Below are positions 2,461 to 64,000 of a stretch of 64,000 nt of DNA, piece by piece. The DNA is from Tragulus kanchil. Lineage: Eukaryota > Chordata > Mammalia > Artiodactyla > Tragulidae. The notes beneath the pieces are model-generated. The model worked only from the letters and a program-made list of their open reading frames with translations, was not told the origin of the DNA and ran no database searches. Numbering within the stretch: the stretch's first letter is position 1; every line of letters starts with the position of its first letter. A program made the translations under genes and the position numbers. The DNA is taken from contig JAIOJX010000001.1 of NCBI GenBank assembly GCA_022376925.1, positions 1,860,001 through 1,924,000 of the forward strand, in the 5' to 3' direction.

Positions 2461-5400
2461 GTGAGTGGCTAAGGGTGAGGGACTCTGAAGGGACCTGTGA
2501 CCTAGTCTGTGGCCTTGAACTGGAGCCCCTTTCTGTGTCAGGGGAACCATGGTTTCTCCAGAGGCAACACGGAGGGTGGGAGAGGGCTGACTGGAAGGTC
2601 AGAAAGACCATCTTGTAGCTCTGCCATAACCTGCAATCTATCCTTTTAGATGTGTTACTGTCAATTTGCTCTCTCTGCACAGAGTGAAGTAAATGACAGT
2701 TGTTTCCCTCTTCTGGAGAGGCCCTTTGGAGCCCAGCTTAAAAGGGAAAACTGAATAGGGCCTTTTTGTGTATGGGGTCCCGTCCTGAGAAAAGTGGGCA
2801 GAAAGGACACAGAAAGGAGCTGAGGCCCACTGTGTCCCCAGGTGTAGACCTATCACAGGAGCGGGAGACCTGTTGGAACCTGGAGCCTGGCGTGCTGCCT
2901 CCTATTCACAGGGCTTCTGACGGAGCTGGGGGCTGGCTCTTCTCGAGTGTGCTGCCTGACAGGGAGTAAGGCATCGTCCTCAGGCCAAGGGGTTGCAGAG
3001 GCATGGGGAAGGGCTTCCCGGGAGGTTACACAGAAGTAGGGTGAGTGTGTGGATTCTTGGGCTGGGCTGTCTTCCCTCCAATCACCTGGACATCTTTCTC
3101 GACTAAGCATCGGAATGACTTGTCTTGGTTTCAGTTTTTCACAGAAAAGGTCAGTTGCTCAGCTGAGCCTGGCCTCTCTGGGTCAAAGTTGGAAAATGGT
3201 GAGTGGTGGAGCTAGAAGGGGCTTTTCAGGCGGAGACATTTAATCACGGGAGTGATCTGTAAGCCGGCCGTGTTCTACCTTCTGCGAGTTAGTAACTGAA
3301 AGTGCTGGGAGGAGTTGGACACATACCTTGCAGTCTTAGGGTTTAAGGAAGCTCCAAAAAAGAAGTATGATCTTGTGGACTGAAATTGAAAGGGAAGCAG
3401 ACCCACGGGACTGAATCTCAAAAGTAAAATTCTGAGTCCAGCTGCAAGAGAGCCAGAGGGTGGAAAAAGAGAACTGGCTGTGTCTGAAGGAACCACGGAG
3501 GCTCTTGAGGGAGACTCCCAGATAAGGTTAGATTTCATCTAGAAGTTAGGAAAGACAGAGAGAAAACAGGATTGCACGGGAAGAGGACAGGGAGCTTTAA
3601 GAATAGTACTAAGGAGGTAAAAGCCTGTGGTGAGCTTTGGGTTGGGAGCACAGTCAGGCCTGGGAAGCAGACAGGCCCCTGGGGTGTCTGTGTAAAGTGA
3701 AGAAATGGTGGGGAGCGTGTCAGGGCAGAGGAGGCGCTGTGAAACCCCAGACGGGCAAGGAGGTCTGCAGCGCCCGACGTCTTTGACTTGCCTTCTGCTT
3801 GGACTGATGAAGGTCAGTCCAGCGGCTCTTGAGACTGTTTGCAGGTGGAATTGGCGGTCCTTGAGGAACTGCAAGGTAGGAGAGATTCTGCGAGACTGCG
3901 GACAGGCAGGCACCTCAGTTTCCAAAGGAGGGAGATTGTAGGTGAGGAACAACTAGAATGGGAGGGTCTGGTCTGACTTTGATTTCCAGCTGTGTTCTAG
4001 AAAAAATAGCTTGTATGCGTTTAGAGAAGTGAGAGGGATCATTGGCAACTACTGTGAATTCTTAGAGAACTGGTTCTATCCGTCTTATCCCTGCTTTTGC
4101 CCATTTAGTATGTGTGAATTTTCTGCAGAATGTTTGCCGGTTTCCAATTAGAGAAGCTTCTTGTGGACCAGGTGCTGAAGTGAGAGCAGGGTGTTGGCGT
4201 AATAGTGTGGTTGGGCGGGGGCCTAGCTCCCAGGAGCGACTGCTGTGTGGGTCAGCTCCATCCAAATAGGGCTCTCAGTAGCTTGCATCTGCCCCTGGCC
4301 TGCCCGGTGCTTCTCTGCTGAGGACAGTTGTCCTGGCAAGCAGATGCAGGGAGAAGTGAAAAGGTGCAGGGAGGATTTGAATAACAGGTACGCGGCCTAC
4401 TACGCAGAACCCGCAGCCATCTAGACAGGTTTGCTGAGGAGGCCAACTCAAACGAGATGTGAGTTTTTAGTAGGGTTCTGTTTGCAGATGTGTGTGGGTT
4501 CGTAAAGGGCCAAACAGGAATCCAAAAGACATGGGGTTGTGCCTGCTGGAGCTTAGTGAGAAGCTCATGAGCTGTGGGTCCTCTTCAGGAGAGACCGGAG
4601 GCACCAGCCTTACTTGTCAGCCTGGAGGGCTGCAGCTGGGGCCCCACCTGTAGAGAAGAGCTCAGATGGCGAATTCAGAAATAGTCACAGTGGTGGCAGG
4701 TGGAGTGGTGTTTGTTCCCCCACGTACTGTGGTTTTGAAGTCTTACTATCCTGACTTCTCTGCTTTTGGGATGTCTTCCAGAAGAATACTTCCAGGGCAG
4801 GTATTGTCCGTCTGGGCCAAGGGTCAGCGGGTAGCCCGTGGACCAGACGAGTGAGGGTGTGCTCAGCTCAGTCCTCTCTGCAGCACCACGAAGCTAGGTG
4901 TTCCAGCCTAATTCCTGCAGTTGACTTTAAAACACTGATATAAAGCGCAGTTCAGCATCTAGTTCTAGGTAGGAGAGATTCTGCGAGACTGCGGACAGGC
5001 AGGCACCTCAGTTTCCAAAGGAGGGAGATTGTAGGTGAGGAACAACTAGAATGGGAGGGTCTGGTCTGACTTTGATTTCCAGCTGTGTTCTAGAAAAAAT
5101 AGCTTGTATGCGTTTAGAGAAGTGAGAGGGATCATTGGCAACTACTGTGAATTCTTAGAGAACTGGTTCTATCCGTCTTATCCCTGCTTTTGCCCATTTA
5201 GTATGTGTGAATTTTCTGCAGAATGTTTGCCGGTTTCCAATTAGAGAAGCTTCTTGTGGACCAGGTGCTGAAGTGAGAGCAGGGTGTTGGCGTAATAGTG
5301 TGGTTGGGCGGGGGCCTAGCTCCCAGGAGCGACTGCTGTGTGGGTCAGCTCCATCCAAATAGGGCTCTCAGTAGCTTGCATCTGCCCCTGGCCTGCCCGG

Positions 5401-8400
5401 TGCTTCTCTGCTGAGGACAGTTGTCCTGGCAAGCAGATGCAGGGAGAAGTGAAAAGGTGCAGGGAGGATTTGAATAACAGGTACGCGGCCTACTACGCAG
5501 AACCCGCAGCCATCTAGACAGGTTTGCTGAGGAGGCCAACTCAAACGAGATGTGAGTTTTTAGTAGGGTTCTGTTTGCAGATGTGTGTGGGTTCGTAAAG
5601 GGCCAAACAGGAATCCAAAAGACATGGGGTTGTGCCTGCTGGAGCTTAGTGAGAAGCTCATGAGCTGTGGGTCCTCTTCAGGAGAGACCGGAGGCACCAG
5701 CCTTACTTGTCAGCCTGGAGGGCTGCAGCTGGGGCCCCACCTGTAGAGAAGAGCTCAGATGGCGAATTCAGAAATAGTCACAGTGGTGGCAGGTGGAGTG
5801 GTGTTTGTTCCCCCACGTACTGTGGTTTTGAAGTCTTACTATCCTGACTTCTCTGCTTTTGGGATGTCTTCCAGAAGAATACTTCCAGGGCAGGTATTGT
5901 CCGTCTGGGCCAAGGGTCAGCGGGTAGCCCGTGGACCAGACGAGTGAGGGTGTGCTCAGCTCAGTCCTCTCTGCAGCACCACGAAGCTAGGTGTTCCAGC
6001 CTAATTCCTGCAGTTGACTTTAAAACACTGATATAAAGCGCAGTTCAGCATCTAGTTCTAGTTTGGTCGGTGTAGAGTAGGGTATCACCACCACAGCCAG
6101 GGGACAGAGCGGTTGGCAGGTGAATTCAAAGAGCAGTCCTCGTTTACAGTAACTCTGCTGTCTCCTAAGGGGCGCGTGGAGGCTGAGAGGAGGGCCCTGG
6201 TGCATGCACGCTGCTCTGTCGTATTAGCTGCCTCCCCCACTGTGCTGTGACCTCTCCATTTGACAGGCATGTAAGGAAGGCTTCGTTGAATTCCCTTTAA
6301 ACTGTGTCAGGCAAAGTAACTTCTAGGGCCTGGTTGTTCCAGCAGCCGCACACCTGTAACCTGTCCGCCTTAGCTGAAAGAGGCTCTGCTGTACTTGCCA
6401 CACCCTCCCTTGTCCCTGTGCGGTAGCTGGTCAAAACAAAATGACGTTCTTATGTGACTTCTTAGAAAAGAAACAGTGACCCTGACCCCAAGGATCAGTG
6501 TGGATTCACCAGTTGCCCACCAATGATCTGTTCAGTTGTTTCTAGAGTTTTTCAAGATGATATACTCTTCCCTAGTAGGGTCTGATCCTGTATGGTGGCC
6601 GTGACCCTCGAGGAGCTTCTCTCCCTGTATGACATCAGCCACAGAACTTGCAGGAGACACTTGAACACAACTGGCATCTTGTTGTTTGGATTTAGAAGTT
6701 ACACCTGCTACTGTAAAAAACCAAAACCCCCGAGCTTCCAGTAGTGTAGGAATGTGTGGTGAGAAACGGCCAGTTTTCATCTCCAGAGATAGCTGTAGGT
6801 AGTAAGTGGGATGTTTCTGAACGTTTAAAAATAATCTTTGACATATGTGTAACTTTTCTCTTATGAGTGCTGTGGGTTTTTTTTAAATTTTTTTGGTCTC
6901 CTTGACTTGCCCTTCTCACTCAGTTATTGTCTTGGCAGTTTTTCCAAGTGACTTGCACGGACTTCTGCTGTGCTTCATGTCTGGTCAGCGTTCTGTGCTG
7001 TGAGCACACCATCGCGTGTTAACCAATTCCCTGCTCACATATATGAGCTGGTTCGAAATTTTTACTGTTAAGAAATCACTTTCCCACATTGATGTTTTCT
7101 AATCCGTCTGGCACAGGATGCTCCTTGTTTCCTTTTTCTCTCTTTAATCACTGGAAATGGGTCTGTGGGATCCTGGTTCCCTGGCACGTAGCTGCTCCCA
7201 GTGTGGCCTGTAGCCAGCAGTGTTGACCAGACCCTCCGGCCCTGCCTCTGGCCTGCTGACAAGGGCCTGCATTTCGTTGTGCTCCCAGTGACCCTGACTT
7301 TTAATTTTAACCAGTAAAAAAATTGAATTAAAAGAATAAAAAAATTTAAAAAAACTGAAGAAAAAAAACAACTATAGTTACTGTACAATGTTGTGTTAGT
7401 TTCAGGTGTACAGCCATTTTTTGACCCTGCTGCATGGCTCGTGGGATCTCAGTCCTACCATTTCCCCACTGCTCAGCATCAGGCTCGTCTCCCCATTTTT
7501 CTGAGATCATAAACAGGGAAGACCTGTCTCAGCTAGGCCTCCTGGTCCTCTTCATCCTGTTTGTGTCCCTCTTCCTATCCTCTCATCTGTGTTTGCACAT
7601 GTCTCCCTGGCTGGCACTGCCTTGTCCTGAGCCCCAGTTAGGAGAAGAGCACGTGGAGCAGAGTGGGTGGGTCAGGAGTGGCCAGAGCCGTGGTGGAGGG
7701 TTTTGAATGCCAATTGCAGAGTTTGTGCCCAACCTCTGTGTGGTCGAGCTCCGAGCTTCTCCGGTGACGCTGGGGGTGGAGCAGAGCAGGAGTGCCTGGA
7801 AGCAGGGGACCCACGTCAGAAGCCACTGAATTGAGAGGTGCCGGTGGCCTGAGCCAGGTTTCAGAGGTGCTGGTGAGTGAAAGGGGAGGAGCTAGAGGGG
7901 ATGCCAAGCCCCTAAGGCTGACGCGGTGGTGGTGGTTCTCCTGTGGGTGCCTGCAGAGTGGCAGAACCCAGAGGAAGGCTAGCACATATGTGCGGGTGGG
8001 GGAGAGGAGCCAGAGGGAAGTGGGAAGGCAGTGGAGTGGTGACTTTACTGGGGGGGTCGAGGGATGGGCACATGGGCGAGAGGGTGGCCACTCCCTGGAA
8101 GCGAGGTCAGGGGCGTTGAAAGCAGGTTCAGGGAGAGGCAAGACTGGGGGAGACGGCAGGTGTGGCTGAGAGGGACTGCAGGGGAGAGGGCAATGCTGGG
8201 AAACGGGGCTGGGAGGGGCGCTGCTCTCATGGAGCGGGTGTCAAGAGCGCGAAGGGGGCGCGCTCCCTGTGGGTCCGGTGGTTGGGCACCTGCGCTCTCA
8301 CTGCCCCTGGGGTTCAGTCCCTGGTCGGGGAGCTGAGGTCCCGCAGGTTGCGCAGGGTGACCAGCAACCAAAAAAGACCACATGCAGGGAGCCTTGAGCT

Positions 8401-11400
8401 GTGCTCATAGTTGAAAATGGGGGACCCAGGCTTAAAGAATGCATCACATCCTTCACCTGGTCCGTACATCCCCACGAAGCTCTCCCCGGGCTTCTGTCCT
8501 CTGCTTCATGGTGGCTCTGACGTGGGACAGCTTGCTTCCTTCCCAGGTCTAGGTGCTCCTTTCACTGTGGGCTGGGCTGCAGAGTCTGAGAACAGCTGTC
8601 TCCACGCAGAAGCCTGGGGGGCTCTGCCCCTTTTTCTTGTTCCATGTGGTACCCTGCTCCTGGTTTTTTTTTTTTTTTGTAATTGTGGTAAAATGTACAT
8701 ACCGTCAAACTGACCCTCTGAACCATTTTTTGGTTCATCTCCAACATATGAATTTGTCAAATGTGCTTTCTTGTATTTGTTTCTTATTCTTGTTGTTTTG
8801 CCCATGCTGTGTGACTTGTGGGATCCTAGTTCCCCTGTCAGGGATTGAACCCGGGCCCTCGGCACTGAAGGCACAGAGTCCTGCTCACCAGTGGATCACC
8901 AGGGGAGTCCTCCCATCAACCATGGCAAGAGGGGGTGCGGGGTCCGTGCAGAGGCCACAGAAGTACACAGGGAAGGGTCCCCACATGGCTGGCTCATGAC
9001 ACAGGGAGGTCAAAGCAAAGACTGTAGAGGGCTGTAGGAAGGAGCCACATCCCGAAGGATCTAGGCATCGAGCTTTGATGCCCAGGGTGCTCTGACAGCA
9101 CAGGAAGCAGGGGCTGGGGAGGCTGGTTTTCCACGCCGGAGCGCCCGCGCCGCTGGGCAGGCACGGTGGACAGGCTGCAAGACCTGCCAGCAGGAGGGAG
9201 GCCCGGGGGCAGGGAGGGGTGCTCATGCAGACACACATGGCCGGGTGCCCCAAAGATGTGGATGCTGCAGGCCTGGCACTGTGCTGTGGGCCTCTGGTCT
9301 GTGAGGGCGGGGTGCGGGTTGCCATGAAGCGTGGGCCGCGGCGGTGTGGCCTGTCTCACGCGGGCCTGCTCGCCTTTGCCTCGGTGCCTCCTTCCCTGTG
9401 CTGAGCGGGCCGGCCGCTGGCCCTCTGGAGCAGGGTCCGCGGCTGCCTGCCCTCTCCTGCCGGGCTGAGGGTTGATGTGCTGAGAGCCAGGCTCTGTTTC
9501 GCCTTTGCTGAAGCGTTAGTGGCCAGGACTAAAGCTGTCGTCTCGTCGGGCCCAGGAAGGGCCTCGTGTGCGAGCCTCGATCCCTAGCGGCCTGACTGGG
9601 CCCGCAGGTGCCGCTCGTGCTCTGTCTTCTCCTCCGGGGCTGGGTTGTGTCGCCAGTCAGCACAGGTGGGGCTGCCTGCGCTTGCCTGCCACGTTCTCTT
9701 CTGGACAGCCAGTGCCCGGGGGCCTGGGCGGGCTCCTGGACGGTGACTGAGCCCATCACAGCCCTGGAGGGGCCGGTCCATCCAGGCCCTCCGGGGAGAG
9801 CGGAGCACTCTGCTCTGCCGTAGCTCCGCTGCGCGGGTAGTTGGTGCGCCTGCGGCCGCCGGGGCTTATGCACATGGCCAGAGAAGCCAGAGCCGCCGTT
9901 CCGTGGGGGCCCATGGGCCTGGCAGGTCCAGCCTGGCCAGCCTTGGCCACGGGGCGCTTCCCTTGCCCAAGGGACTGTAGCAGCCCGAAAGACAGGCGGG
10001 TGTGGTGAGAGTTGATTTTGGAATGAGCGGGCTTTGGGTCCCGACTCTGTCACCGTTCAGCCGTGTGCACCTCGAGTGGCTCACCGGCTCCGGAGCCTTG
10101 GCCTGCGCCTGCTGGACGGGGGTGAGGCTAGAGGGCACCGGGGCCGTGCTCTCAGCGTGTTGCTCGGTATGTGGGGCGTGCCCAGTAAACGGGTGCTGCT
10201 CCTGGCGCAGGTAGGGAGGGTTTTGTGGGATTTTGCCCACCAGGGTGGTGGCTGTGCCAGGCCCCGGTAGGGAGGTGGAGACAATGCCAGTCTTGGCCCT
10301 CGGGGGCCTTCCATTCCAGGCTGGCCACAGGCTGGGTAGAGGGGGGGCAGCAGAGCAGACTGAGGCAGGGGCCAGGGGACAGTCCCGAGAGCAGGGGGAC
10401 GCGTGGAGGGCCGCCCCGGCGGAGGCGGGGGAGGGCACGCGAGGAGGCCTCGGGCGCTGGGGTCCGGCTGGGTGGCGCTGCGGCTCTCAGCCCTTACGGT
10501 AGCGTCTTAGGAACCAGCGCAGTGGTGAGTGGTCCCGTTTCCCAGATAACTTGGCAAGTTTTGTTGATGCTTTTTTGCTGTTGGTTTAATTTGTGTCTAG
10601 GTAAGGTCATAAAGGTATTTTTAAAATCTGATGCTCAGAGTCAACCCAAAGAGGAAGTGATCTAACTGGAGGGGTGACCTTAGCAGGCCCGGTAGAGGCG
10701 TTTGGGGCCTTTATTTCCTCTTGATCCTTCGGTGAGCTGACACCCTTTTTTGAGACTACAGATACAGTAGTGCTTCTCAGCTCAGCCCTGCTGAGGTCCT
10801 CGATTTCTAGCCGCCTGCAGGTGCTGGGCCTAGGAGGGCTCTGATGAGGGGGACTGTGGTCAAGGTGAGGAAGTCGCCTACGAAGAACCCAAGGAAGAGT
10901 GTCTAACGTGCGTCAGAACGACTGTCAGCTTCTTTCAGCAGTGGGTCGTCTGCTCAGCTGCTTGGTTTTGGCCAAGATTTCTCTTCCTCACACTGTGAGG
11001 GCAAATGGCAAATGGACTCTTTGGGGGCAGGGTGCCAAACAATAGGGGTCCAGTCCATTCATTTAAAGGTAAACTTAAACGTTAGACATAGTCCTAACTA
11101 TGCACAAAGCTCTTTTTCAGGGTCCACTTTCCACAAACCATCTTAGCACTTTTTGTACCCATTGATTTGTTCTCCCGTCTTGAAGTAGCCACTTCAGTCT
11201 TCTTGATTCCAAGGTCGTGGGAAGGAAGCCTGGTGTTGCAGCAGGGCCCCTTCTCTGAAGGCAGGGGGCGGGCGGAGTGGAGAGGGGCTGGAGATGGGAA
11301 GGACTCTGGGCGCCTCCAGCCCAGCACCATCGAACTGACTGCCTCCAGGCTGGAAACGCTCTTGCTGTGAACAAGCGTGGCTGCTGTGACTGAGGAGCTG

Positions 11401-14400
11401 TATTTTTCATTTTATTTCATTGAATTTATTTGAATGGAAAGGCCACCAGTGGCCTCAGCTGGCTTGAGTCGCTGATACCACCTCTTGTCCTTTACTTCAT
11501 TCCCTGCCAGGGCCAGGCCCGTTTCCGGGCTCGCTGCAAGGGACGCTGCTCTTGGCTCGGAGGAACTTGTGGGCACGTCTCGGGCAGCCTGCTCGCTCCC
11601 TCTCACTCCCTCCGTGTAGCCAGAGTGCCACCCACGTTTCAGTACCAGAGCATCTGCCTAGGTTGCGTGGCCTCTTGGTTGCTCTCTGTACCCTGGTTTC
11701 AACTAGGCAACGTGAGAAGCTTGCTCCTCTTCGTGGGTTCTCTTCAGCTCCAGGGGGCCCACCCCGCCAGCCCTTTCTAGCTGACCTCGCTCTCCCCAGG
11801 ACAGATAGGCGCTGTCTGGGCTTAAGGTAGAATTGCTGCAAGGCCTTGGCCTTTCCTTGACCCCTTCCCATTTTTTCTGACCTCAAGGTTTGGGAGGAAG
11901 TCTCAGGGTTGAGATGTACTCCTAAGACAGATGGACGGGGGCAGCCCTCGAAAGATTTTCCCTGAACATTTCTGAGTAAACTCTCCCCATTCTGCTGCCT
12001 TCTTATTTCCATGACTCCAGACTATTAGGGTGAGTTTCCTTGGGGCGACTTCCGCCCTACTGTTGCTGGTCTGCTTTGCCTGAGACTTCTGCTAGGGCAG
12101 CACCTGGCTTTTGACTCTTACCAGAGTTGCCCCCTCCCACTCCTCTGCACGGCCGCCGCCTCCATGTTTTCTTCCTGGTGAGCTGGCCTGAGGTCACTGG
12201 GAGTCCACGTGCCACAGCGCGGAGCGCCGCCTGAGTCAGGGCTGTAGTCAGCCTGGGATGTCAGCAGGTGGCGCCGTGCCACCAGCTTCCTGCTTGCCCC
12301 GTGCAGCGGGGTGAAGGCAGTTAGTTGCCTTCCCGCCTGTCTTGTATCCCGAGGGCTTGCTGACCTGAGGGTGTGGCAACTGACCTACCTGGTAAATGCT
12401 AGTGACGGATTGGCAAGAGGGCGTGCAGGGGTGGGGTGGGGTGGCCACAAGCCTGGAATATTCCATCCGGGACGTGGGAGGATTCTCCCTCGTGCTCTTG
12501 TCTCACTTCCTATTAGGCCAGTGTCTGCCTCCCCCCGTTTGCCCAGAGGGGGGAGGGAGGATGAGTGGAAAGCGCCTGTGCGCCAGCGCTCTGCTGCTTG
12601 GTATGGTTGGCTCTGTTTCTCCTGCCGGTTCCTGTTTACTCAACCTTTATAACAGCGTGAAAGTCCCACTCAGAGTCCAGAACCGTTCTACCAGGAAAAC
12701 CCAGTTGAGTTCAAGCGTTTGGGACGACATAGGTCTGCCAAGGACACATTTGGATTCTCTCGTGGATATACACTGACTTTGCCCTCTGTCGCTGGGTGCG
12801 TTGAGCCCAGACCCCTGGCCCTGCTGCCAGCCCGATACCTTTGGGATTCCCTTTGGCTGTGGCTTCTCACCTGTTGTCCAGAAATGGCTAAGAGTAGTTA
12901 CCTACATAGCAGGACTCGGGCAGTCGAGCCGAGCGTGTTGGGGAGGGGACAGCGGGCGTGTAGAGGGTAGTCTGCCAGCTGTCTGTCTAGACTGGCCTCT
13001 GGACTGTTGAGACTGGGGAGGCTGTGACGCTCAGCACCCTCCACCATGTGCTCTGACCTGGGTCTCAGTCCTGGTGGACACTCAGACCATTGGTGTGCCT
13101 GACAGGGTCACGGGGAGCGCTGGAACCGAATCTTGGGTGATTTTAAGGGCAGGCACAAGAGCCTCATGTGTGAGGGGCAGTAAGAAGTTCTAGAATGCTG
13201 ACTCCTGGGAAGGCCTGCTTGGCCGTGCTAGGGAGTGCTGCTCTTGGTTTAGCTGGGAGCCCCAGGGGCACCCTTTGGACTTGGGCTGGGGCACGGGCTC
13301 TGCCCCCAGCTTTGATGATGAGTTTTCCCAAGTGCCTTCTCAGCTCCCACTGCAGTCACAGGCCTCGCGGGCTCCTCCGCAGGGGTCTGGCACAGCACCT
13401 GCCCGCTGCTGTTTCCTGTCACCATGTTGCTCAACAGACTGATGAGCCCTGTCCGTGTCGGCCTGTGTCCCCGCAGTGTGGCAGGGCTGAGGGAAGGCTG
13501 AATCCAGGGACCGCCCAGGCCCCAGACCCACATTCTGTCCTGGCCTGAGATGTGGCCTCACACTCGTGGGGGCAGGGGAAGCCATCTGCAGGCCCCTCCC
13601 CAGCGGACCAGGTGTGGGAGGAGATGCAAGGTGCAGTGCCAGGCCTGCAGGCATGTGTAGCTGGGCAGCCAGATGCGGAGCAAATGAGAAGGAGATGTGG
13701 GGAGACGAGTGGGAGACGGCAGCCAGAGCCACGCGCTGGCTGAGGGCTGGGGCTGCGGCGGGACGCAGAAGGGGCCCTAGGGGTCCAGGAGAGGCCATAA
13801 GGGCAGAGTGGCAACCACACTGGGTCTTGGGTCGTCAGGGAGCGTTTTCAGAGGGCCTGGGGCACCGGCGGGCTGGCCTGCAGTGGCATGGAGACGAGGC
13901 AGGCGAGGACGGGCGTGCTCCAGAGCAGCCGGCGGTTTGGTGTGACTAGAGCAGAGGGCCCGGCAGAGGGTGAGCGGACAAGAGCCGGCTCGCAGAGGGC
14001 CGCGTGCCAGCCAGAGGCATGGGCGGGCCTCGGGGATCGAAGCAGACGGGTGACGTGATCAGATCGTCTTGGAGAAGGGTCACTGGCTTTCCTTGGGGTC
14101 CTGGTTTGCAAAACTGTGTGGTCGAGGGTAGGGAGGAGGCTGGTTAGGAACTGCTAAAAGTCCCCAGGAGAGCACGGGGTGCTGGATGGCATGCCTGCCG
14201 CGCGCTGGGATGGATCAGTGATGCTGTCCACTGCAGCACCATGCAGGGGTGTCGGCCTCTCTTGAATGGGCTGAGTCGAGCGTGCCTTGGGGACACCCGG
14301 GAGCCACCAGTGGGTAAGCTGCTGGATGTTAGGGTCTGGTTGAAATTCTGAAGGCAGGCAGTAAGGGAAGAATTCCAAGGGGTGACCTGTCAGCTGCAGC

Positions 14401-17400
14401 AGATGCCACAGATGGGTAAGGGCACGGGTCGTCCCGTGGGTGGCGTTGTCAGGGCAGGCGGAAGTGTGGAGGCCCAAGGCAAGCTGGGAGGGGCTTGGGC
14501 TGGTGGGACGGAGAGCCTCGAGGGATGAGGTTCCTGGAGGGAGGAATTACCCAGGATTATCTGTGACTGGCGTGGGGAAACAAGTCTAACAAGAAGGGAG
14601 AGGCTGGGTGGTGGGGTGGGGACACGTGGTGGAAACAGGGCGCTAATCCGGGAGGCTCCTGTGCCGCCCGGAGTCTGGGAGACCCTCAGGGTGGGCCGGG
14701 GGCCGGCGGCAGGAGGCCTCCTGGACAGTTCTTGGGCTAGGTGCCTGTCTCCTCTTAGGGGTAACCCTGGCTCTCCGTGACGGCGGATGGGCTGGGAGGG
14801 CGCCGAGCAGAGCTGGGCCCTTGCTGCGCGGCCGTGCTCGTCGCCATGTTGGGCCTGGCCTGCCTGGGTCACGGGGGCGGCCGCTGCGGAGTCGGCCCAC
14901 GTCCGGCGGCTCCGGCCCAGCCTCGTGGTGGGGCAGGGTAAGGAGGGAGTGTCACTTTGGCTTGCCCGCGCCATCTTTGCTGGCTGGGTCTGCCGGGTGG
15001 CACACGTGCCCTTCCCCCCGAACCCAGTCTCCAGCTGGGAGGAGCGGCCTGCGCCACGTCGGCAGGATCCACTCGGAGCTGCCCGAGCGCCCTGTGCCCG
15101 CGAGCTTGGGGTTTCGTCAGACTTGCCTTTTTTGGGGGGCTCCTTCGGTGGCCGCCACTCTGCCTGTATGCCTCAGGCATGTTGCTTCTCTCTAGCTCCT
15201 GGGGCACTCGGGAGCTCCCTCCACCTCCAGGGCTCTAGCCGGGTGGGGGCAGGCTGGTGGGCAGTCAGGGCTGAGGCAGGGAAACCTGAGCCCTGGGCCA
15301 CGAGGTCCCCTTCGCTAATTTTAGAGAGCACATGTCACTGGAAACTCTCCCTTTCTGCCAGGAATCAGTAGCCTGGCTCTCCCGTTCTGACAGGGGCCCT
15401 GGAGCCGCTGTCTAAACCAGGAAGTGGATGGGTGCCTCACGGCCCCTGGAGCCGCTTCCCCTTGGGGCTCGTTCCTGGCAGGGGCTGTGCCAGGGAGAGC
15501 TGGGTGCCTTGTTGGCTCTCCTGGTTCTCCCTAGTCCCCTTGGGCTGTGTGAGCAGCAGGTGGCCACAAGAGCCCTGCAAAGGCCAGAGACGGTGCCTCA
15601 GAGCAGGCGGTCTCAGCTGCTTGGTCTCCTCTGAGCACTTGCTTGTGGACGCACCCTCGCTCCCGGGGCCTGCCCCCGCCGCGCCCTCCTCAGGGCAGTG
15701 ACCAGGCAGGCCCACGCTAGGCGCGGGGAGAGGTGCCCCCGCCACGCCCCGCTCCGCTCTCCCGTCCTCCTTCCTCCTCTGGCTGATGTCTCGGGGCAGG
15801 GTGCCTGTTGGGCATCGGAGCAGCGTACGTCCAGCTGCCACCTGCTTGCCTCTCGTGGCTGGTCTGGACCTGAGATGTGTGCCTGGGCCCCGAGTCTTCA
15901 TTTTCTGCCCCCTAGTTCTGGGAAGCCTCAGTCTGGTGATACTGTGCAACAGATGGGCTCTAGAGCTGCCTGTGGACTGCACTGGGGAAGGGGCTGAGGA
16001 GAGAAGCGTTGTTTCCATCTCACTCGGTTGGCCCGGGTGCGGTTCCCTGGAAACTGAGAACATGTTGTGGTTGCCAGCTCAGGCCTTGGGGTCAGAACAG
16101 GCAGGAGTGCAAATTCCAGCTGCATTTGTTTCTGGCTCTTAACCAGTTGCTTCAGCCTGCTGAGTCTCCGTCTCCCCTCTGGGAAATGGGGGCCGCGGGA
16201 GTGCTGGTCTCGCCAGGTAGGCTGGGGGATTCGACTCGCTTGTCGGAAGCTCCCCCAGCACTGGCTGCTCCTTCAGGAAGGAGAGCAGCGTGGAGAGTGC
16301 CAGGTTCTAGGCCTCTAGGCTGCATTTAGGCCCTCCTGTCCTGTCGAGCCCCTGTGTCCTGTGCCTTTGGAGGCGCTAGGGGTCATGGCGGCGTGGGACG
16401 GCTCCCGGCTCCCTCTCTCGCCTCGTGTGGCCGGCGTGTTCCTCTTTCCCAAGCTGGCTGCCCCGAAGGGCAGGTCTGGGCTGGAGGCAGGTGTGGGCTG
16501 GGAGCAACCAAAAGAAATCCATGCTCGCCATTTTCCCCCTTCTCAATTCTCCTTTTGTTTGATAAATAATCACAGCCTGCTTAGACGCCTGGTAACGCTC
16601 ATCTCCCAGCAGGCCACGCTGCTGGCCTCCAATGAAGCCTTTAAAAAGCAGGCAGAGAGTGCTAGTGATGCGGCCAAGAAGTACATGGAAGAGAACGACC
16701 AGCTCAAGAAGGTGGGTTCGGTCTGCCCGACGGCCCCTGGCGTGTGGCACTGTTTCTATGGGCTGGGTGGCTGCCATTAGCCTGTGAGGCTGGAAACTGG
16801 GGTACACAGCTGCTGTCGCGTGAAGGAGTGGGGCAGAGGGACGAAGCGGGTTTCTCAGCGTGGAGGGCGGCGGTGTGGGAGGGGTCTGAGGGGCGATAGA
16901 GGAAAGGGGGCGCCCTTGCTGCTGTCTTGCCTCGGCACTCGCTGCGTCCAGGCCAGACGACTCCTGGATAAACCAGGCTCCCTCAGGAGCCAGGCCCTGC
17001 GCCGTGAGCACCGGGGAGCACGAGGTCAGAGCCCTGGTCTCCCCAGGCTTGCGATCAGCTGGGGACGAGGTGGGGCGATCCTCGAAGGCTTGACGGAGGA
17101 GGCGAGGTGTGAGCCAAGCTGGGAGGACATGGCTGGACTTGGCTTCACAGGCCGAGTAGAGGCGGGTGGCAGGGCTGAGCGGGGCTTCTTGGCCAGATGG
17201 AACTGTGGAGCTCGGGGAGAGGGTGGGAGGGTATTTGTCCATTGGGGTGACTGGCAGCAGTCCCCAAATGACAGCAAATGGAGTTGCTGGGTAGACTCTG
17301 AGGAGCTGCTGAGAAGAGAGGCAGGGCCCAGAGCCAGAGCCGGCAGGGCGTGTGGCCTCTGAGCTGGTGCAGGTGGCCCTGCTCGCCCTGGACTTTGCCT

Positions 17401-26012: not shown

Positions 26013-34333
<8,321 letters not shown>

Positions 34334-48521: not shown

Positions 48522-48599
48522 TAAACATCTTTTTGCATGCTTATTTGCCCTCTGTATTTCTTCTTTGGTTACGTATCTTTGACCTATTTTTTTTGAGCA

Positions 48600-50888: not shown

Positions 50889-51110
50889 TCAATATTCAAA
50901 AAAGTAAGATCACGGCATCTGATCACATCACTTTATGGCAAATAGAAGGGGAAAAACTGGAAACAGTGACAGATATTCTTTTCTTGGGCTCCAAAAATCA
51001 CTGTGGATGGTGACTGCTGCCATGAAATTAAAAGATGCTTGTTCCTTAGAAGGAAAGCTATGACAAACCTAGAGTATTAAAAAGCAAAGTATTAAAAAGC
51101 AGAGACAGGG

Positions 51111-51329: not shown

Positions 51330-52197
51330 ACTGTGTGCAAAACAAGAAGCAACAGTCAGAACCTTACATGGCACAATGGACTGGTTCAAAATTGGGAAAG
51401 AAGTACGACAAGGCCGTGCATTTCCATCCTGCTCATTTAACTTACATGTACAGTACATCACACAAAATGCCTAGCTGAATCATAAGCTAGGATTAAGATT
51501 TCCAGGAGAAATATCAACAACATTAGATATGCAGATGATACCACTCTTATGACAGAAAACGAAGAGGAACAAAAGGGCCTCTTGAAGGTGAAAGAGGAGA
51601 GGGGAAAAGCTGGCTTAAAACTCGGTATTCAGGGTCTCCCTGGGTAGCTCAGTGGTGGAGAGTTCGCCTGCCAGTGCAGGAGACACGGGTTTGAGCCCTG
51701 ATCCGTGAAGATTCCACATGCTGCGGAGCAACTAAGCCCATGAGCCACAACTATGGAGCCCATGGGCCACAACCACAGAAGCCCATGTGCCCTAGAGCCC
51801 GAGTTCCACCACAGGAAAAGTCATCACAACAAGAAGCCTGCTCACCTCAATTAGAGAGGAGTCTCCACTCCCTGCAACTAGAGAAGAGCCTGTGGCAGCA
51901 GTGAAAACCCAGAAGAGCCAAAAATAAATAAATAAATAAAATGCATTTTTTTGAAAAAAAACAAAAACAAAACCCTCAATATTCAAAAAAGTAAGATCAC
52001 GGCATCTGATCACATCACTTTATGGCAAATAGAAGGGGAAAAACTGGAAACAGTGACAGATATTCTTTTCTTGGGCTCCAAAAATCACTGTGGATGGTGA
52101 CTGCTGCCATGAAATTAAAAGATGCTTGTTCCTTAGAAGGAAAGCTATGACAAACCTAGAGTATTAAAAAGCAAAGTATTAAAAAGCAGAGACAGGG

Positions 52198-52510
52198 GCT
52201 TCCTGGTGGTCCAGTGGGTAGGGACACCGCCTTGCAGTGCAGGGGGCACCGGTTCGATCCCTGGCCTGGGAAGATCCCACGTGCCGCGGAGCGGCTGGAC
52301 CCATGTGTCCAACAACCGAGCCAGAGCTCTGGAGCGCATGTGCCCAGAGCCGGTGCTCTGTGATAACAGAGGCCACTGCGATGGGAAGCCCACACGGGCC
52401 AAAGAACAAAGATGGATGAAAATAGATAAATGAAAGACCAATAGAAGTGGCCCGCCTGCCCCTACCCACCCTACCCCCCCAAATAAATAAATAAATAAAT
52501 GTTTTAAAAA
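52198..52510 (+). repeat. tRNA-Glu SINE (CHR type), complete, inserted in BovB
   Basis: Same body as 51111-51329 with its full 3' part, ending in an AAATAAATAAATAAATAAAT tail. An AGAGACA target duplication flanks it (before GGGGCTTCC and again at 52520). BovB resumes with CATCACTTTGCCAACC. Confidence 0.88.
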
Positions 52511-53690: not shown

Positions 53691-54234
53691 AGAGGGGCCA
53701 GAGCAGTGATGAGGAAGAGGGACCAATCCTGCAGTCTATAGGCCCCTGGAAGGACTTACACTTTGGTTCGGAGTGGCACGGAAGAGCCATAGCAGGATTT
53801 GGAGCTCAGGGTTGGTACGATCTCAATGACAGGAATGCTCCAGCTGCTTGGTGGGGAGGAAGGTGCCAGTCAGAGAGGTTAAGGGTGTGGTCACAGGGCA
53901 GGGGAGCTCAGCACGGAGGCTGTTGCTGTCCTTACCAGAGTGCCCCACGTGGGCTCAGGCCAAAGCACCAGAAGCGGCAGAGGCAAGGCTGGGGCTAGAG
54001 CAGGAGGCTGTTTTAGGCCAGCTGGCCCCGACGGCCTGGCTGCAGAGAGGCCGGTAGAGCAGAGACCTGAAGGCAGGTAGAGAGCCAGGTCAACATGTGG
54101 GTGAAGAAACTTCTGCATAGAGGACAGGTGGTGCAAAGGCCCTGGGGTCGACCCAGTCAGTCTGCTGGGGGAGCAGGAACCCGCACAAATGACCAAGGAG
54201 GGAGGCGGGGGCAGCCAGCGCGGGCCCATTGCCT

Positions 54235-54660
54235 TACAAGGTGCCCTGCAGTGCCGCCGCTGCTCTCAGCCACCGGGAGCTCGCCGCCAGCGGGCAGCAC
54301 GGGCGCGCGGAGGGGCGGGGCCGAGGGGGCGAGCCCGGGGCTCGGCGAGGGGCTGCGGCTTTGCTTCAGTTCCAGGGCCGCACTCGGCGCTCCAGGATGC
54401 GGGCGCGCGCAGGCGGGGCGCGCAGGGTCTCAGGCCGCGGCAGGCCCCCCAAGCACCTGTCACGCCTGGCGCGGTCCCGGCCGTCACGCGCGTGGCCCAC
54501 GCAGCTCGGGACGCAGGAGGCCCAGGCTGCCGAGTCCCTCCCGCCTCGAGGCTCCGAGGGCTGGATGGAGCCGGGGACGCAGGTGCATCTCGGGCGGTGG
54601 TGGCTTGGAGGGCGCGTGTCTGTGGGCGCTGGGCCGTGGGTGGCAGGTCTAGGTATGGGG
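54235..54660 (+). promoter_or_regulatory. PNCK: CpG island, probable PNCK promoter (copy 1)
   Basis: Dense CpG with GC boxes (GGAGGGGCGGGGCCGAGG), about 0.4-0.8 kb upstream of the PNCK first-coding-exon relic. A non-coding first exon is expected here by analogy with other PNCK genes, but none can be delimited by eye. Confidence 0.6.
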
Positions 54661-54998
54661 GCGAACCGGAGGGGCCGGGGGAAGGGGCATGGAGCCTTCT
54701 GGAAGGCAGTCAGTCAAGGCTGACTGGATTGTGTAGAGGCGGAGAGGCGCGTGTGGGCGCTGATCGTCGTAGGAGTGGCAGTTTGGGGGGCGCCGGATGG
54801 CGGCGTATCTGGGAGGGGGAAGGAGTGTAGTGGCGGCCTCGCTGGAGGCGCCCACCTGGGAGGGCAGCCCTGGACGGCGGGGGAGGGGCGAGATGTACCG
54901 GGCTGGGGGAGGGTGGCCGAGGGCTGCTGGGTCCGGGCTTGGGGATGGGGCTGCCCCTGCCCCAGGGAGCCTCCCCCCACCTCTTCCTGCGCCCCTAG

Positions 54999-55061
54999 AC
55001 TTGCTGCTGCTCAGGAAACACACAGAGGACATCAGGGCTAGATCCGGGAGAAGCTTGGCTC
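54999..55061 (+). pseudogene. PNCK: PNCK first coding exon relic (duplicate copy 1)
   Basis: After CGCCCCTAG the exon reads TTGCTGCTGCTCAGGAAAC, i.e. LLLLRKHTEDI with Leu for the initiator Met, then a disturbed end before GTGAGTGTG. It lies at the low-quality end of duplication copy 1 and differs from copy 2 by deletions. Confidence 0.75.
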
Positions 55062-55359
55062 GTGAGTGTGTTTAAGTGAATTTGTGTGTCTGGGCGGGGT
55101 GGGGGAAGGGATCTGGGGGCTAGAGCAGGAGGCTGTTTTAGGCCAGCTGGCCCCGACGGCCTGGCTGCAGAGAGGCCGGTAGAGCAGAGACCTGAAGGCA
55201 GGTAGAGAGCCAGGTCAACATGTGGGTGAAGAAACTTCTGCATAGAGGACAGGTGGTGCAAAGGCCCTGGGGTCGACCCAGTCAGTCTGCTGGGGGAGCA
55301 GGAACCCGCACAAATGACCAAGGAGGGAGGCGGGGGCAGCCAGCGCGGGCCCATTGCCT

Positions 55360-55785
55360 TACAAGGTGCCCTGCAGTGCCGCCGCTGCTCTCAGCCACCG
55401 GGAGCTCGCCGCCAGCGGGCAGCACGGGCGCGCGGAGGGGCGGGGCCGAGGGGGCGAGCCCGGGGCTCGGCGAGGGGCTGCGGCTTTGCTTCAGTTCCAG
55501 GGCCGCACTCGGCGCTCCAGGATGCGGGCGCGCGCAGGCGGGGCGCGCAGGGTCTCAGGCCGCGGCAGGCCCCGCAAGCACCTGTCACGCCTGGCGCGGT
55601 CCCGGCCGTCACGCGCGTGGCCCACGCAGCTCGGGACGCAGGAGGCCCAGGCTGCCGAGTCCCTCCCGCCTCGAGGCTCCGAGGGCTGGATGGAGCCGGG
55701 GACGCAGGTGCATCTCGGGCGGTGGTGGCTTGGAGGGCGCGTGTCTGTGGGCGCTGGGCCGTGGGTGGCAGGTCTAGGTATGGGG
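55360..55785 (+). promoter_or_regulatory. PNCK: CpG island, probable PNCK promoter (copy 2)
   Basis: Same as 54235-54660 at an offset of 1125; one difference noted (CCCCCCAAGCACC against CCCCGCAAGCACC). Confidence 0.6.
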
Positions 55786-56123
55786 GCGAACCGGAGGGGC
55801 CGGGGGAAGGGGCATGGAGCCTTCTGGAAGGCAGTCAGTCAAGGCTGACTGGATTGTGTAGAGGCGGAGAGGCGCGTGTGGGCGCTGATCGTCGTAGGAG
55901 TGGCAGTTTGGGGGGCGCCGGATGGCGGCGTATCTGGGAGGGGGAAGGAGTGTAGTGGCGGCCTCGCTGGAGGCGCCCACCTGGGAGGGCAGCCCTGGAC
56001 GGCGGGGGAGGGGCGAGATGTACCGGGCTGGGGGAGGGTGGCCGAGGGCTGCTGGGTCCGGGCTTGGGGATGGGGCTGCCCCTGCCCCAGGGAGCCTCCC
56101 CCCACCTCTTCCTGCGCCCCTAG

Positions 56124-56191
56124 ACTTGCTGCTGCTCAGGAAACACACAGAGGACATCAGCAGGGTCTAAGATCCGGGAGAAGCTTGGCTC
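56124..56191 (+). pseudogene. PNCK: PNCK first coding exon relic (copy 2)
   Basis: Reads LLLLRKHTEDISRV then stop; human has MLLLKKHTEDISSVYEIRER. TACGAGATC is reduced to TAAGATC. Donor GTGAGTGTG is kept. Confidence 0.82.
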
Positions 56192-56352
56192 GTGAGTGTG
56201 TTTAAGTGAATTTGTGTGTCTGGGCGGGGGTGGGGGGAAGGGATGGGTGGCACATGACAGGGAGGGCCTCGCATCTCCTGCAACGAAGGAGGTCCTTCCC
56301 TCTGCCCACCTCTGCTCCCCGTCTCTTCCCTGTCTTTCCCTCTCCCTTCCTG

Positions 56353-58212: not shown

Positions 58213-60391
58213 CTGGGAGCTGGTTTCTCGGTGAGGTCGGGGTGCCAGGCTGCATGCAGCCAAGAGCTCAGTGGCCTGAGGGCAGAGAGCAGAGAGAGAG
58301 GGGAGGAGCTGGGGTTCCCAGAGACGGGGATGGGGGCAGGCCACGCTGCTGGCAGGGACTGTGAGTGTTCTTGAGGGGCCCAGTGCCAAGCCCCAGTGGG
58401 TGCCTCTGCTGAGAGCCTGGGCTGGGAGCAAGGGGCACAGGGCAGGCCAGAGGCGCCTCCTCAGCGTCCCTTTTCTTGTGCTTCTCTCTTCCTCTCCACC
58501 TCAGACAGATGCTGAGACTGACCGCATGGGCTCGGATTCTCTTCCAGGGGTCCATTTCAGTCCCTCCACCCCAGGGCAGGGGGCCGCTCGTGGGCGCATC
58601 CACAGACTCGCCTTCCCCTGTGGCCATCTGGAAGCCTTTTCTGGAAGCCCCCAGAGGTGTCCTTCCCATGTGCCGTTCTGTGCTTCATTGACTGTGGGTG
58701 GTCCTGCTCGTGTCGTGGCCTTCCAGTCCGCCTCCAGTCCCCAAATCAATAAAGACCGACAAAGCGGTGGGCAGTGGTGAGCTGGCGGGAAGGCTGAGGA
58801 TCGGGGTGAGTGTGGAGGAGTTCTGTGGAAGGAATCAAGGAGGCAGGCCCACTGCCCAGCAGGCCCCACCCACGAGATCTCGCCCTTCGCCACCCAGACT
58901 TCTGCACAGAAGCTCCTGGTTGTCTAAGAACTTCCCGTTCGCACTCCCCACAATGCCGGCAAGAGGCAGCCCGGCGAGCCAGCTTCGCCACCCTCGAGAT
59001 GGGCTTGTGTGTGGCTCTGGGGCCCGAGGAGCGCGTGGGCACAGCTCAGGCCTGCTGCGCTGCTGGCAGCCGGAGCGGGAGGCAGGCCGGGGGCCCGAAG
59101 AGGGCGGACTCCAGGCCTCCAGGGCTGGGCTGAGCAGGGCTCAGGGCTAAGACGCCGCGTGCTGTATCCAGGAGGGCGACCAGAGCCCCGGGCTGTCTTC
59201 TCCCCGCTCTCCGTTCCTTCCTCTGCTTCTTGCAGCCGTGAACAGACAGCACAGTCCCAGCGCCCGCTCCGGGTGTGCACAGAAAGGCTCTGCGCCTGTG
59301 CTGGGAGCTGGTTTCGGTGAGGTCGGGGTGCCAGGCTGCATGCAGCCAAGAGCTCAGTGGCCTGAGGGCAGAGAGCAGAGAGAGAGGGGAGGAGCTGGGG
59401 TTCCCAGAGACGGGGATGGGGGCAGGCCACGCTGCTGGCAGGGACTGTGAGTGTTCTTGAGGGGCCCAGTGCCAAGCCCCAGTGGGTGCCTCTGCTGAGA
59501 GCCTGGGCTGGGAGCAAGGGGCACAGGGCAGGCCAGAGGCGCCTCCTCAGCGTCCCTTTTCTTGTGCTTCTCTCTTCCTCTCCACCTCAGACAGATGCTG
59601 AGACTGACCGCATGGGCTCGGATTCTCTTCCAGGGGTCCATTTCAGTCCCTCCACCCCAGGGCAGGGGGCCGCTCGTGGGCGCATCCACAGACTCGCCTT
59701 CCCCTGTGGCCATCTGGAAGCCTTTTCTGGAAGCCCCCAGAGGTGTCCTTCCCATGTGCCGTTCTGTGCTTCATTGACTGTGGGTGGTCCTGCTCGTGTC
59801 GTGGCCTTCCAGTCCGCCTCCAGTCCCCAAATCAATAAAGACCGACAAAGCGGTGGGCAGTGGTGAGCTGGCGGGAAGGCTGAGGATCGGGGTGAGTGTG
59901 GAGGAGTTCTGTGGAAGGAATCAAGGAGGCAGGCCCACTGCCCAGCAGGCCCCACCCACGAGATCTCGCCCTTCGCCACCCAGACTTCTGCACAGAAGCT
60001 CCTGGTTGTCTAAGAACTTCCCGTTCGCACTCCCCACAATGCCGGCAAGAGGCAGCCCGGCGAGCCAGCTTCGCCACCCTCGAGATGGGCTTGTGTGTGG
60101 CTCTGGGGCCCGAGGAGCGCGTGGGCACAGCTCAGGCCTGCTGCGCTGCTGGCAGCCGGAGCGGGAGGCAGGCCGGGGGCCCGAAGAGGGCGGACTCCAG
60201 GCCTCCAGGGCTGGGCTGAGCAGGGCTCAGGGCTAAGACGCCCGCGTGCTGTATCCAGGAGGGCGACCAGAGCCCCGGGCTGTCTTCTCCCCGCTCTCCG
60301 TTCCTTCCTCTGCTTCTTGCAGCCGTGAACAGACAGCACAGTCCCAGCGCCCGCTCCGGGTGTGCACAGAAAGGCTCTGCGCCTGTGCTGG
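58213..60391. repeat. Tandem direct duplication 10 (period 1086-1088 bp)
   Basis: Copy 1 is 58213-59300 and copy 2 is 59301-60391. Differences: GTTTCTCGGTG against GTTTCGGTG at the start of copy 2 and GACGCCGCGTG against GACGCCCGCGTG. The unit starts just after the PNCK stop and copies its 3' UTR and poly(A) signal. Confidence 0.95.
58748..58753 (+). terminator. PNCK: PNCK poly(A) signal
   Basis: AATAAA 557 nt after the PNCK stop, followed by a GTGGGCAGTGGTGAG G/T-rich stretch. A second copy lies at 59834-59839 through duplication 10. Confidence 0.7.
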
Positions 60392-62475
60392 GCGATGGCT
60401 CTGGCGCTGCGGGGCTCCAGGCTCTGCTCGGCCTGAGTCCTGTGCCGGCAGGGAAGACGCTTAGGCTCTGTCTTTGACTCCATCCAGGGCAGAGGGAGTG
60501 CCCTGAGTTCTGTGCAAACTGGCCACAGCTTTGCCCCACTGGCACCCCTGCCCCCTAGCCCTCGCCAGCCTGCGTCGCCCTGAGCAGAGCCAGGAAAGGC
60601 TTGGGGCCCATCAAGGCCGGGCTCTGGAGCTCTGGCCATCCAAAATGGAGCTGCTCATGGCAGGGGCTGGCCGAGCAGCCACCGCGGGATCTGATGCAGA
60701 CACTTCTTCCTGTGACTTTTGGGACCTGGACCGAGGCAGCCAGAAGACCCGGAACAGGGCCGGCCTGGGTCTTGGGGTGCCGCTGGAGCAGGGAACTGGC
60801 TTCCACTGAGGAGGCAGTGGGGCATGCCTGCCCGCTGCTTCCCAAGCCCACAAGTGTGTCTCTGACTTTCTGCTTCTCCCACCGCCTTCCGTGCACCCGT
60901 GACACGGGCCCCTGAGGCCGGGACAAGTCCCGAGGGCGTAGGCAGCTTCTTCATCTGTCCCCACAGACACTTCTCAGCTGTCCTTTGCTCCAGGCTTCAG
61001 GGTCAAACGGTGAGGTCCCGCCATACCAGTTGCCCACAGCTCAAGGGACCTTGACCACAGCTTGGCTCTGAACCTCCAACCGTCTGTCCTGGCCGCACTT
61101 GGCCCCCAACTTAGGGCCTTGCCATCTCCTGTCCTGCCCCTTGAATGTCCACTTCAGTGGCTCTCCCTCCCTGATTTCAGTTGTCCACGCTGGCCTCCCC
61201 GCACACGCACTGTGCAAGGTGCCCGCTTCACGCAGAAGGCCCTGTAGTGGAGGGGGTGGGATTACTCAGACGGTGGGGCTGTTCTGTGTGGAGAAAGTCG
61301 TGGCTGGCTGCTCATGAAGGCTTGAACGGGAGCTCCAGAGCCGTCCTTCCAGAAGGAGTCACCTTCCTTCAGAGACTCCCAGCTCTTCCAGCCCAGCTTG
61401 GGCCAGGTCCCTCCAGACAGGCTAGTGAACCTCCGACCAGCAAGGCTCTGCGCCTGTGCTGGGCGATGGCTCTGGCGCTGCGGGGCTCCAGGCTCTGCTC
61501 GGCCTGAGTCCTGTGCCGGCAGGGAAGACGCTTAGGCTCTGTCTTTGACTCCATCCAGGGCAGAGGGAGTGCCCTGAGTTCTGTGCAAACTGGCCACAGC
61601 TTTGCCCCACTGGCACCCCTGCCCCCTAGCCCTCGCCAGCCTGCGTCGCCCTGAGCAGAGCCAGGAAAGGCTTGGGGCCCATCAAGGCCGGGCTCTGGAG
61701 CTCTGGCCATCCAAAATGGAGCTGCTCATGGCAGGGGCTGGCCGAGCAGCCACCGCGGGATCTGATGCAGACACTTCTTCCTGTGACTTTTGGGACCTGG
61801 ACCGAGGCAGCCAGAAGACCCGGAACAGGGCCGGCCTGGGTCTTGGGGTGCCGCTGGAGCAGGGAACTGGCTTCCACTGAGGAGGCAGTGGGGCATGCCT
61901 GCCCGCTGCTTCCCAAGCCCACAAGTGTGTCTCTGACTTTCTGCTTCTCCCACCGCCTTCCGTGCACCCGTGACACGGGCCCCTGAGGCCGGGACAAGTC
62001 CCGAGGGCGTAGGCAGCTTCTTCATCTGTCCCCACAGACACTTCTCAGCTGTCCTTTGCTCCAGGCTTCAGGGTCAAACGGTGAGGTCCCGCCATACCAG
62101 TTGCCCACAGCTCAAGGGACCTTGACCACAGCTTGGCTCTGAACCTCCAACCGTCTGTCCTGGCCGCACTTGGCCCCCAACTTAGGGCCTTGCCATCTCC
62201 TGTCCTGCCCCTTGAATGTCCACTTCAGTGGCTCTCCCTCCCTGATTTCAGTTGTCCACGCTGGCCTCCCCGCACACGCACTGTGCAAGGTGCCCGCTTC
62301 ACGCAGAAGGCCCTGTAGTGGAGGGGGTGGGATTACTCAGACGGTGGGGCTGTTCTGTGTGGAGAAAGTCGTGGCTGGCTGCTCATGAAGGCTTGAACGG
62401 GAGCTCCAGAGCCGTCCTTCCAGAAGGAGTCACCTTCCTTCAGAGACTCCCAGCTCTTCCAGCCCAGCTTGGGGC
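60371..62475. repeat. Tandem direct duplication 11 (period 1071 bp)
   Basis: Copy 1 is 60371-61441 and copy 2 is 61442 to about 62475, starting AAGGCTCTGCGCCTGTGCTG. The last ~45 bp of copy 1 (CCAGGTCCCTCCAGACAGGC) is a scrambled or shortened form of 62474-62545. It abuts duplications 10 and 12. Confidence 0.95.
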
Positions 62476-64000
62476 CAGGTCCTCACGGAGGCATCCGAGC
62501 CCCAGCACCGGCCTTAGTGATCTGGTGCAGTTTAACCTCCGACCAGCAAGTGGCGCCATGGTCACATTTTTTCCACGGTCACCAGCCACCCGTGGCTCCT
62601 TCAGCACCTAGGGCAGCTGCTCAGGACCTGTCTCCTCCACCTCGCGCCCACACTCTGCCCCAGGGACGACCTCGCCCGGGGGAGAGTTCCTGCTTGCCTC
62701 TGTGGGCGCAGGAGACAGGCGCTCTTCCTTTTATCCCATCTGGGGGGGTGGGCTGAGAAGGCAGCTTTGGATCCCCCAGGGCGTGGGAGCACGGGGGGCT
62801 CAAGGCGGCCGGAGTCTCTGCACCTGCCGAGCCGCGCGGGACAGGACCGGCTTCCCGGGAGGGGAGGAGGGCGCCCCTGTGGGTGCTGTGGCACCAAGTG
62901 CCCCCGCTGCGGGCCACACCGGGCGGGTCGCGTGCTGTGCCCTGGCGCGAGCCTCGGGGTGTCACGGCGTTTCGGGGGCGCTCAGCCTGAGAGGCCGCCC
63001 TGGGGACGGGGAGACTAGGCCCGCGGTCCTGGGAGCCCCTGAGAAGGCAGGGATGGGCCGCGGGTGGCAGTGAAGCCGAGCAGGCCCGGGGTGGCCGGTG
63101 CCGTTTCTGGGTAGCCCGGGGGTCGCTCGCCGAGGGGTTCCGCTGGGATGCGCTTGGGAGAGAGCCTGAGGCTGGACCTGGTGACGGGGCGCTGCCTCAG
63201 GGGCAGGGAGTCAGGCAGAGGAGACACGCTCCTCACCCCTCTGATCAGAAGGGCTCGACCCCATGCCCGCGCTCAGCACCCCTGCTCTGCGTATGGGGGC
63301 GCTGGGGCGTCGAGGCCGCGCCGCGGCGCGGGGCCCTGCAGCCTTGCTCTCTGCCTGCCGCAGAGAGGGGGCTCCCCGGGCCGCGAGGGCGGTGTGGGGA
63401 CCGAGGAGAAGCGCAGACTGCCGCCGTGAGCAAAGAGGGGAGCCCTGGGCTGGGGGCCCTGGGCTTTGCATTTCAGCCCTGCCGGTGGTTCTGTTGCCTT
63501 TATCCTCGGCGCCTGTTTTAGTGAAGGAGTTCCTTGAGATGGGAACCCGTGAACCCTTGGGGTTGAGTGTGCGGGCTTCGCCAGGTCCTCACGGAGGCAT
63601 CCGAGCCCCAGCACCGGCCTTAGTGATCTGGTGCAGTTTAACCTCCGACCAGCAAGTGGCGCCATGGTCACATTTTTTCCACGGTCACCAGCCACCCGTG
63701 GCTCCTTCAGCACCTAGGGCAGCTGCTCAGGACCTGTCTCCTCCACCTCGCGCCCACACTCTGCCCCAGGGACGACCTCGCCCGGGGGAGAGTTCCTGCT
63801 TGCCTCTGTGGGCGCAGGAGACAGGCGCTCTTCCTTTTATCCCATCTGGGGGGGTGGGCTGAGAAGGCAGCTTTGGATCCCCCAGGGCGTGGGAGCACGG
63901 GGGGCTCAAGGCGGCCGGAGTCTCTGCACCTGCCGAGCCGCGGGACAGGACCGGCTTCCCGGGAGGGGAGGAGGGCGCCCCTGTGGGTGCTGTGGCACCA
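60391..64000. other. Intergenic beyond PNCK, CpG-rich at 62.8-63.5 kb
   Basis: No exon with recognised product, RNA gene or well-marked transposon. A CpG-dense stretch at about 62820-63440 might be a CpG island of an unseen or distant gene. In human the next gene on this side is DUSP9, but none of its coding sequence is visible. Confidence 0.5.
62474..64000. repeat. Tandem direct duplication 12 (period 1106 bp), runs off the edge
   Basis: Copy 1 is 62474-63579; copy 2 begins at 63580 (GCCAGGTCCTCACGGAGGC) and continues to the window end. One 2-bp difference seen (GAGCCGCGCGGGAC against GAGCCGCGGGAC). Confidence 0.93.

Follow-up and report, generated by a model that had tools for sequence, protein, structure and literature searches.

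The Tragulus kanchil genome assembly (3,167,203,957 bp in 32 contigs) repeatedly writes a unit of about 1.1 kb twice in tandem. These pairs are almost certainly an assembly artefact of one kind or another. They probably formed at joints inside contigs, where neighboring pieces of consensus sequence shared a unit that was not merged. An initial annotation of the 64-kb stretch that we analyzed (positions 1860001-1924000 of contig C1; hereafter, the window) had reported twelve such head-to-tail pairs and had preferred an artefact to a biological cause. That preference is borne out by the single length class of the pairs, by their presence in 19 of 22 further stretches, by the concentration of errors at their ends, and by the doubling of exons. 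The same annotation had attributed the pairs to contig or read ends that overlap but were not merged. The unmerged overlaps stand, but contig ends are not where we would place them: because there is a joint every 2-5 kb or so and the window contains no N letters, joints between consensus pieces within contigs are more likely.

By exact offset matching and gapped alignment, we recovered all twelve pairs in the window, with starts at most 4 bp from those first reported; the copy-start offsets in the gapped alignments (1058-1140 bp) are within 0-3 bp of the original values. Each pair comprises two copies of a unit of 1.06-1.14 kb, and in a histogram of 20-mer offsets across the window, the eleven commonest offsets all lie at 1055-1137. 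For the 11 complete pairs, the ratio of matched length to period is 0.964-1.005, which corresponds to a copy number of two. The copies are nearly identical, and every one of these pairs has a longest exact run of between 420 and 1095 bp, which rules out chance. The copies had also been described as abutting exactly. This is nearly so, as the junctions of the 11 complete pairs range from an overlap of 12 bp to a gap of 17 bp (or gaps of up to +38 bp with stiffer gap costs, which stop the alignment earlier). Across 44 pairs, the corresponding range is -13 to +119 bp, with 43 of the 44 at -13 to +30 bp and the remaining one at +119 bp.

Pair 1 (3874-6061, period 1093 bp) lies between two coding exons of BCAP31, and its copies (3874-4968 and 4967-6061) show no differences. 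Pair 2 (24104-26212, period 1058 bp; copies 24104-25157 and 25162-26212) and pair 3 (31095-33279, period 1100 bp; copies 31095-32177 and 32195-33279) double exons of SLC6A8, the last coding exon and exon 2, respectively. Pair 4 (35381-37591, period 1100 bp; copies 35381-36492 and 36481-37591) overlaps pair 5 (37348-39624, period 1140 bp; copies 37348-38487 and 38488-39624). Pair 6 spans 45436-47616 (period 1096 bp; copies 45436-46533 and 46532-47616). Pair 7 (48389-50653, period 1129 bp; copies 48389-49517 and 49518-50653) overlaps pair 8 (50240-52410, period 1087 bp; copies 50240-51323 and 51327-52410). The remaining pairs are at 53991-56244 (period 1125 bp; copies 53991-55112 and 55116-56244), at 58213-60392 (period 1088 bp; copies 58213-59305 and 59301-60392), at 60367-62550 (period 1071 bp; copies 60367-61444 and 61438-62550), and at 62474-64000 (period 1106 bp), whose second copy begins at 63580 and is clipped by the end of the window. 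Because neighboring pairs overlap, two patches are present three times: about 240 bp at 36248-36485 (pairs 4 and 5) and about 370 bp at 49114-49485 (pairs 7 and 8). Together, the second copies make up a fraction of 0.193 of the window.

The window includes coding exons of the creatine transporter SLC6A8 (24961-34108, minus strand), which we identified from the SNF domain and from the human sequence, and coding exons of BCAP31 (2294-18496, plus strand), which match the human sequence from residue 59 on. Pfam searches with ten open reading frames gave one match, to SNF; a PDB search with one open reading frame gave no match, and we found no match to ABCD1 in the window. With the human SLC6A8 protein as the query, exon 2 matches twice (31095-31229 and 32197-32328), as does the last exon (26016-26156 and 24961-25101, with identical translations), and the remaining matched parts occur once. 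The first copy of exon 2 is in frame and has a normal splice donor (AAAG/GTGAGC). The second copy has lost one G from a run of G about 10 bp from the joint, which shifts the frame and gives CPCSK in place of CPLFKG. Furthermore, its donor context reads GTCCCC at the joint; the donor is spoiled because the unit ends at that point. Both defects are within 12 bp of the joint, and this copy resembles the careless end of a piece of consensus sequence. SLC6A8 and BCAP31 also adjoin on human Xq28, so C1 is probably the X chromosome. (The window also contains a SNORA57-like snoRNA at 40131-40278 on the minus strand, with 112.4 bits against Rfam, which could be a gene or a retrocopy, and a U6 snRNA-like copy at 1158-1265 on the plus strand, with 72.6 bits against Rfam. 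U6 pseudogenes are numerous in mammals.)

We also examined 22 stretches of 10 kb: eight from C1 (four of which adjoin the window), one from C9, and 13 from C2-C8 and C15. Their positions were hand-picked round numbers (0.5-50 Mb on C1, and mostly 20, 100, or 150 Mb elsewhere), and we counted pairs with periods of 900-1300 bp. Pairs of the same class are present in 19 of the 22 stretches and on nine of ten contigs: in 6 of 8 stretches from C1, in all 13 from C2-C8 and C15, and in 0 of 1 from C9. The three stretches with no pair are L003, L006, and L020 (C9:1000001-1010000). When the window is included, 144 kb of C1 were sampled; this sequence holds 21 pairs, and second copies account for 14.8% of its bases. 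The 13 stretches from C2-C8 and C15 have 39 pairs in 130 kb, and second copies account for 32.6% of the bases. The density of pairs on C1 (1.46 per 10 kb) is thus half of that on the other contigs (3.00 per 10 kb); the half coverage of a male X chromosome, or base composition, are our guesses as to the cause. We also noticed two runs of N in stretch L009 (416-477 and 4150-4481), which are either assembly gaps or withheld letters.

The initial annotation estimated that about 13 kb might be false. That there is false sequence we agree, but its extent was underestimated, as the problem is genome-wide. Outside of C1 and C9, about a third of the sampled bases are probably falsely duplicated, in units of about 1.1 kb with one unit per internal joint. 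By a rough extrapolation, which takes the unsampled contigs to be alike, there may be roughly 1 Gb of redundant sequence across the assembly. Taking 33% off the contigs other than C1 would leave about 2.16 Gb. Ruminant genomes are around 2.6-2.8 Gb, so it may be that the density in our sample does not apply throughout, or that some sequence is missing. (The large size of the chromosomes suggests that they are few.)

The length of the unit is nearly constant. Among 55 complete pairs (of 60; the five clipped by the ends of stretches are excluded, including one with an offset of 1202 at the start of L011), the period is 1105 ± 33 bp, with a median of 1099, a range of 1024-1191, and 5th-95th percentiles of 1063-1168. 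The standard deviation is just 3% of the mean, and the two shortest periods are 1024 and 1025 bp. In 20 of the 23 sequences (the window and L003-L021), we looked for other periods of 300-8000 bp, requiring a minimum of 250 matched bases, and found no other common class, save for overlaps between neighboring pairs and a repeat of 362-366 bp on C9. The former explain five offsets of 2.1-2.3 kb, which are partial overlaps (301-425 bp) between neighboring pairs rather than third full copies. The latter comprises six pairs in L020 and is satellite-like. Separately, L008 contains a tandem pair with a period of 717 bp (3911-4777), which is possibly real.

The spacings between joints are irregular. 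Among 40 spacings, the minimum is 1.73 kb, the maximum is 20.2 kb, and 17 are at 1.73-2.20 kb, or about two units back to back. Pieces are therefore never much shorter than two units, and a cluster at 1.73-2.20 kb is what we would expect if every piece bears a unit at each end. These spacings bear on two other explanations. First, scaffolding might have concatenated ordinary contigs whose ends share about 1.1 kb, without a gap or merging. This would predict the same pattern of two copies with error-rich ends, and duplications at contig boundaries that lack haplotype divergence (homotype duplications) have been reported by the VGP (PMC8081667). But it would require contigs of only 1.7-6 kb (26 spacings from the 13 stretches outside of C1 and C9), which could hardly be scaffolded into sequences as long as 297 Mb; no N occurs in the window; and the lengths of such overlaps ought to vary much more than they do. 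We consider this explanation unlikely. Second, a program that builds or polishes the consensus window by window, with neighboring windows overlapping, might have kept these overlaps. If they were fixed at a size near 1 kb, they would yield the observed length, but joints would be expected at regular intervals instead of at spacings of 1.7 to 20 kb, which makes this explanation quite improbable. MBG/Verkko-like assemblers use overlaps by homopolymer-compressed k-mers, and we rejected such overlaps as well: for 11 first copies, the compressed lengths are 727-809 with a coefficient of variation of 3.0%, versus 2.8% uncompressed, so compression leaves the length no more constant.

Differences between the copies are concentrated at their ends. 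In 49 pairs (from the window and L003-L022), we counted 143 differences in the 11,760 bp that lie within 120 bp of either end (12.2 per kb, although this may be somewhat inflated because local alignments can stray a few bases into the flank), while the interiors have 53 differences in 42,019 bp (1.26 per kb), or about ten times fewer. The interior differences are 29 mismatches and 24 indels, and 27 of the 49 pairs have none. End-heavy differences point to low-quality ends of consensus sequences and not to genuine duplication, which would scatter them. Indeed, we rejected genuine segmental tandem duplication because the differences are at the ends instead of spread and because the lengths form one class instead of varying.

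Another explanation is that the copies are the two parental haplotypes placed side by side (a heterotype false duplication). The interior mismatches and indels counted above would fit with some allelic divergence. However, a single pair holds 12 of the 29 mismatches, pair 7 (at 48389) alone accounts for 14 of the 53 interior differences, over half of the pairs have no interior difference, haplotype blocks would not be expected to have one common length, and pairs are also present on the probable X chromosome. We therefore view a haplotype origin as very improbable. In pair 7, which has 14 mismatches in all, the mismatches are mostly in a SINE-like stretch (48731-48847, compared to the second copy) that is flanked on each side by a long exact run; mis-mapped reads may have changed one of the copies during polishing. 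(The repeats at 48.4-50.7 kb are BovB-like and Bov-tA-like, which marks the host as a ruminant.)

Finally, a real biological process that yields 1.1-kb tandem units across the genome would have the sequence itself in its favor, and nothing more. It would have to account for units that come in twos, with nearly identical interiors and with differences at the ends, for the cutting of genes and transposon sequence alike, for a doubled exon in SLC6A8 with its splice site spoiled, and for units that would occupy one third of what was sampled outside of C1 and C9. We regard this as hardly credible.

We return to unmerged units at joints inside contigs. In the mechanism that we propose, neighboring pieces of consensus within a contig would each carry the shared unit at their common end. 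The two copies of the unit should be merged, but if the pieces were placed end to end instead, then the unit would be written twice; we infer that the stitching step failed in this way. Because the length is nearly constant, the unit would be an overlap whose size is fixed by the program. The best candidate is the 1024-base segment of a read that serves as a vertex in wtdbg2 (also known as Redbean). A segment of 1024 read bases would correspond to 1105 bp of true sequence if the reads had a net loss of about 8% of bases, and a net deletion of about 8% is plausible for older noisy nanopore reads. Given such a loss, the unit in our 55 pairs is near 1024 read bases. The consensus step of wtdbg2 reportedly merges neighboring edges across their shared vertex, and we know of no published case of such a stutter from this program. 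According to a benchmarking paper (PMC7730629), wtdbg2 cuts reads into 1024-bp segments that are merged into the vertices of its fuzzy Bruijn graph, and this fixed unit is similar to the minimum periods of 1024 and 1025. Its bins are described as 256 bp in another paper (PMC11831799). Multiples of this bin were sought in the 40 spacings by eye only, and the 3% noise in length would mask a bin of about 275 bp. The vertex serves here as a model of the cause only; on balance, we lean towards wtdbg2/Redbean or its close kin as the assembler.

In the homotype false duplications of Rhie et al. 2021 (PMC8081667), software rewrites one locus in tandem without haplotype divergence; one of their examples was traced to a bug in FALCON. 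They are similar to our pairs, which probably lack such divergence as well: in the letters of the assembly, 27 pairs out of 49 have interiors free of differences, and the others have few. The VGP's homotype duplications are often at contig boundaries, are about as long as a read, and have a gap between the copies. In contrast, our pairs have a nearly constant length, have no N in the window, and recur every few kb. We rejected membership in the contig-boundary subtype, which has a gap between the copies, because the window has no N and because 43 of 44 pairs abut within -13 to +30 bp; the pairs work like this subtype nonetheless. Before purging, the VGP's assemblies had 0.3-30% of extra duplication (PMC8081667), and the amount that we found is near the upper end of this range. 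In Ko et al. 2022 (PMC9516828), false exon gains arise from doubled exons that could be mistaken for gene evolution, much as for SLC6A8. Their duplications are mostly heterotype, except in the previous hummingbird assembly, and their highest tabulated total is at least 15.9%, versus 32.6% in our stretches from eight large contigs other than C1. In those parts of the assembly-error literature that our search covered, we found no description of a genome-wide stutter of 1.1 kb.

In summary, the pairs have no biological meaning, and their importance is for quality control. It is unsafe to rely on this assembly for gene models, numbers of exons, repeat content, the size of the genome, or calls of structural variants. 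If our explanation is true, then this is a systematic signature of software that may sit unnoticed in assemblies that were built alike, and would inflate their counts of exons, genes, and transposons. Other assemblies can readily be scanned for this signature, in which a sequence is present twice at a distance of 1024-1191 bp and the copies differ at their ends.
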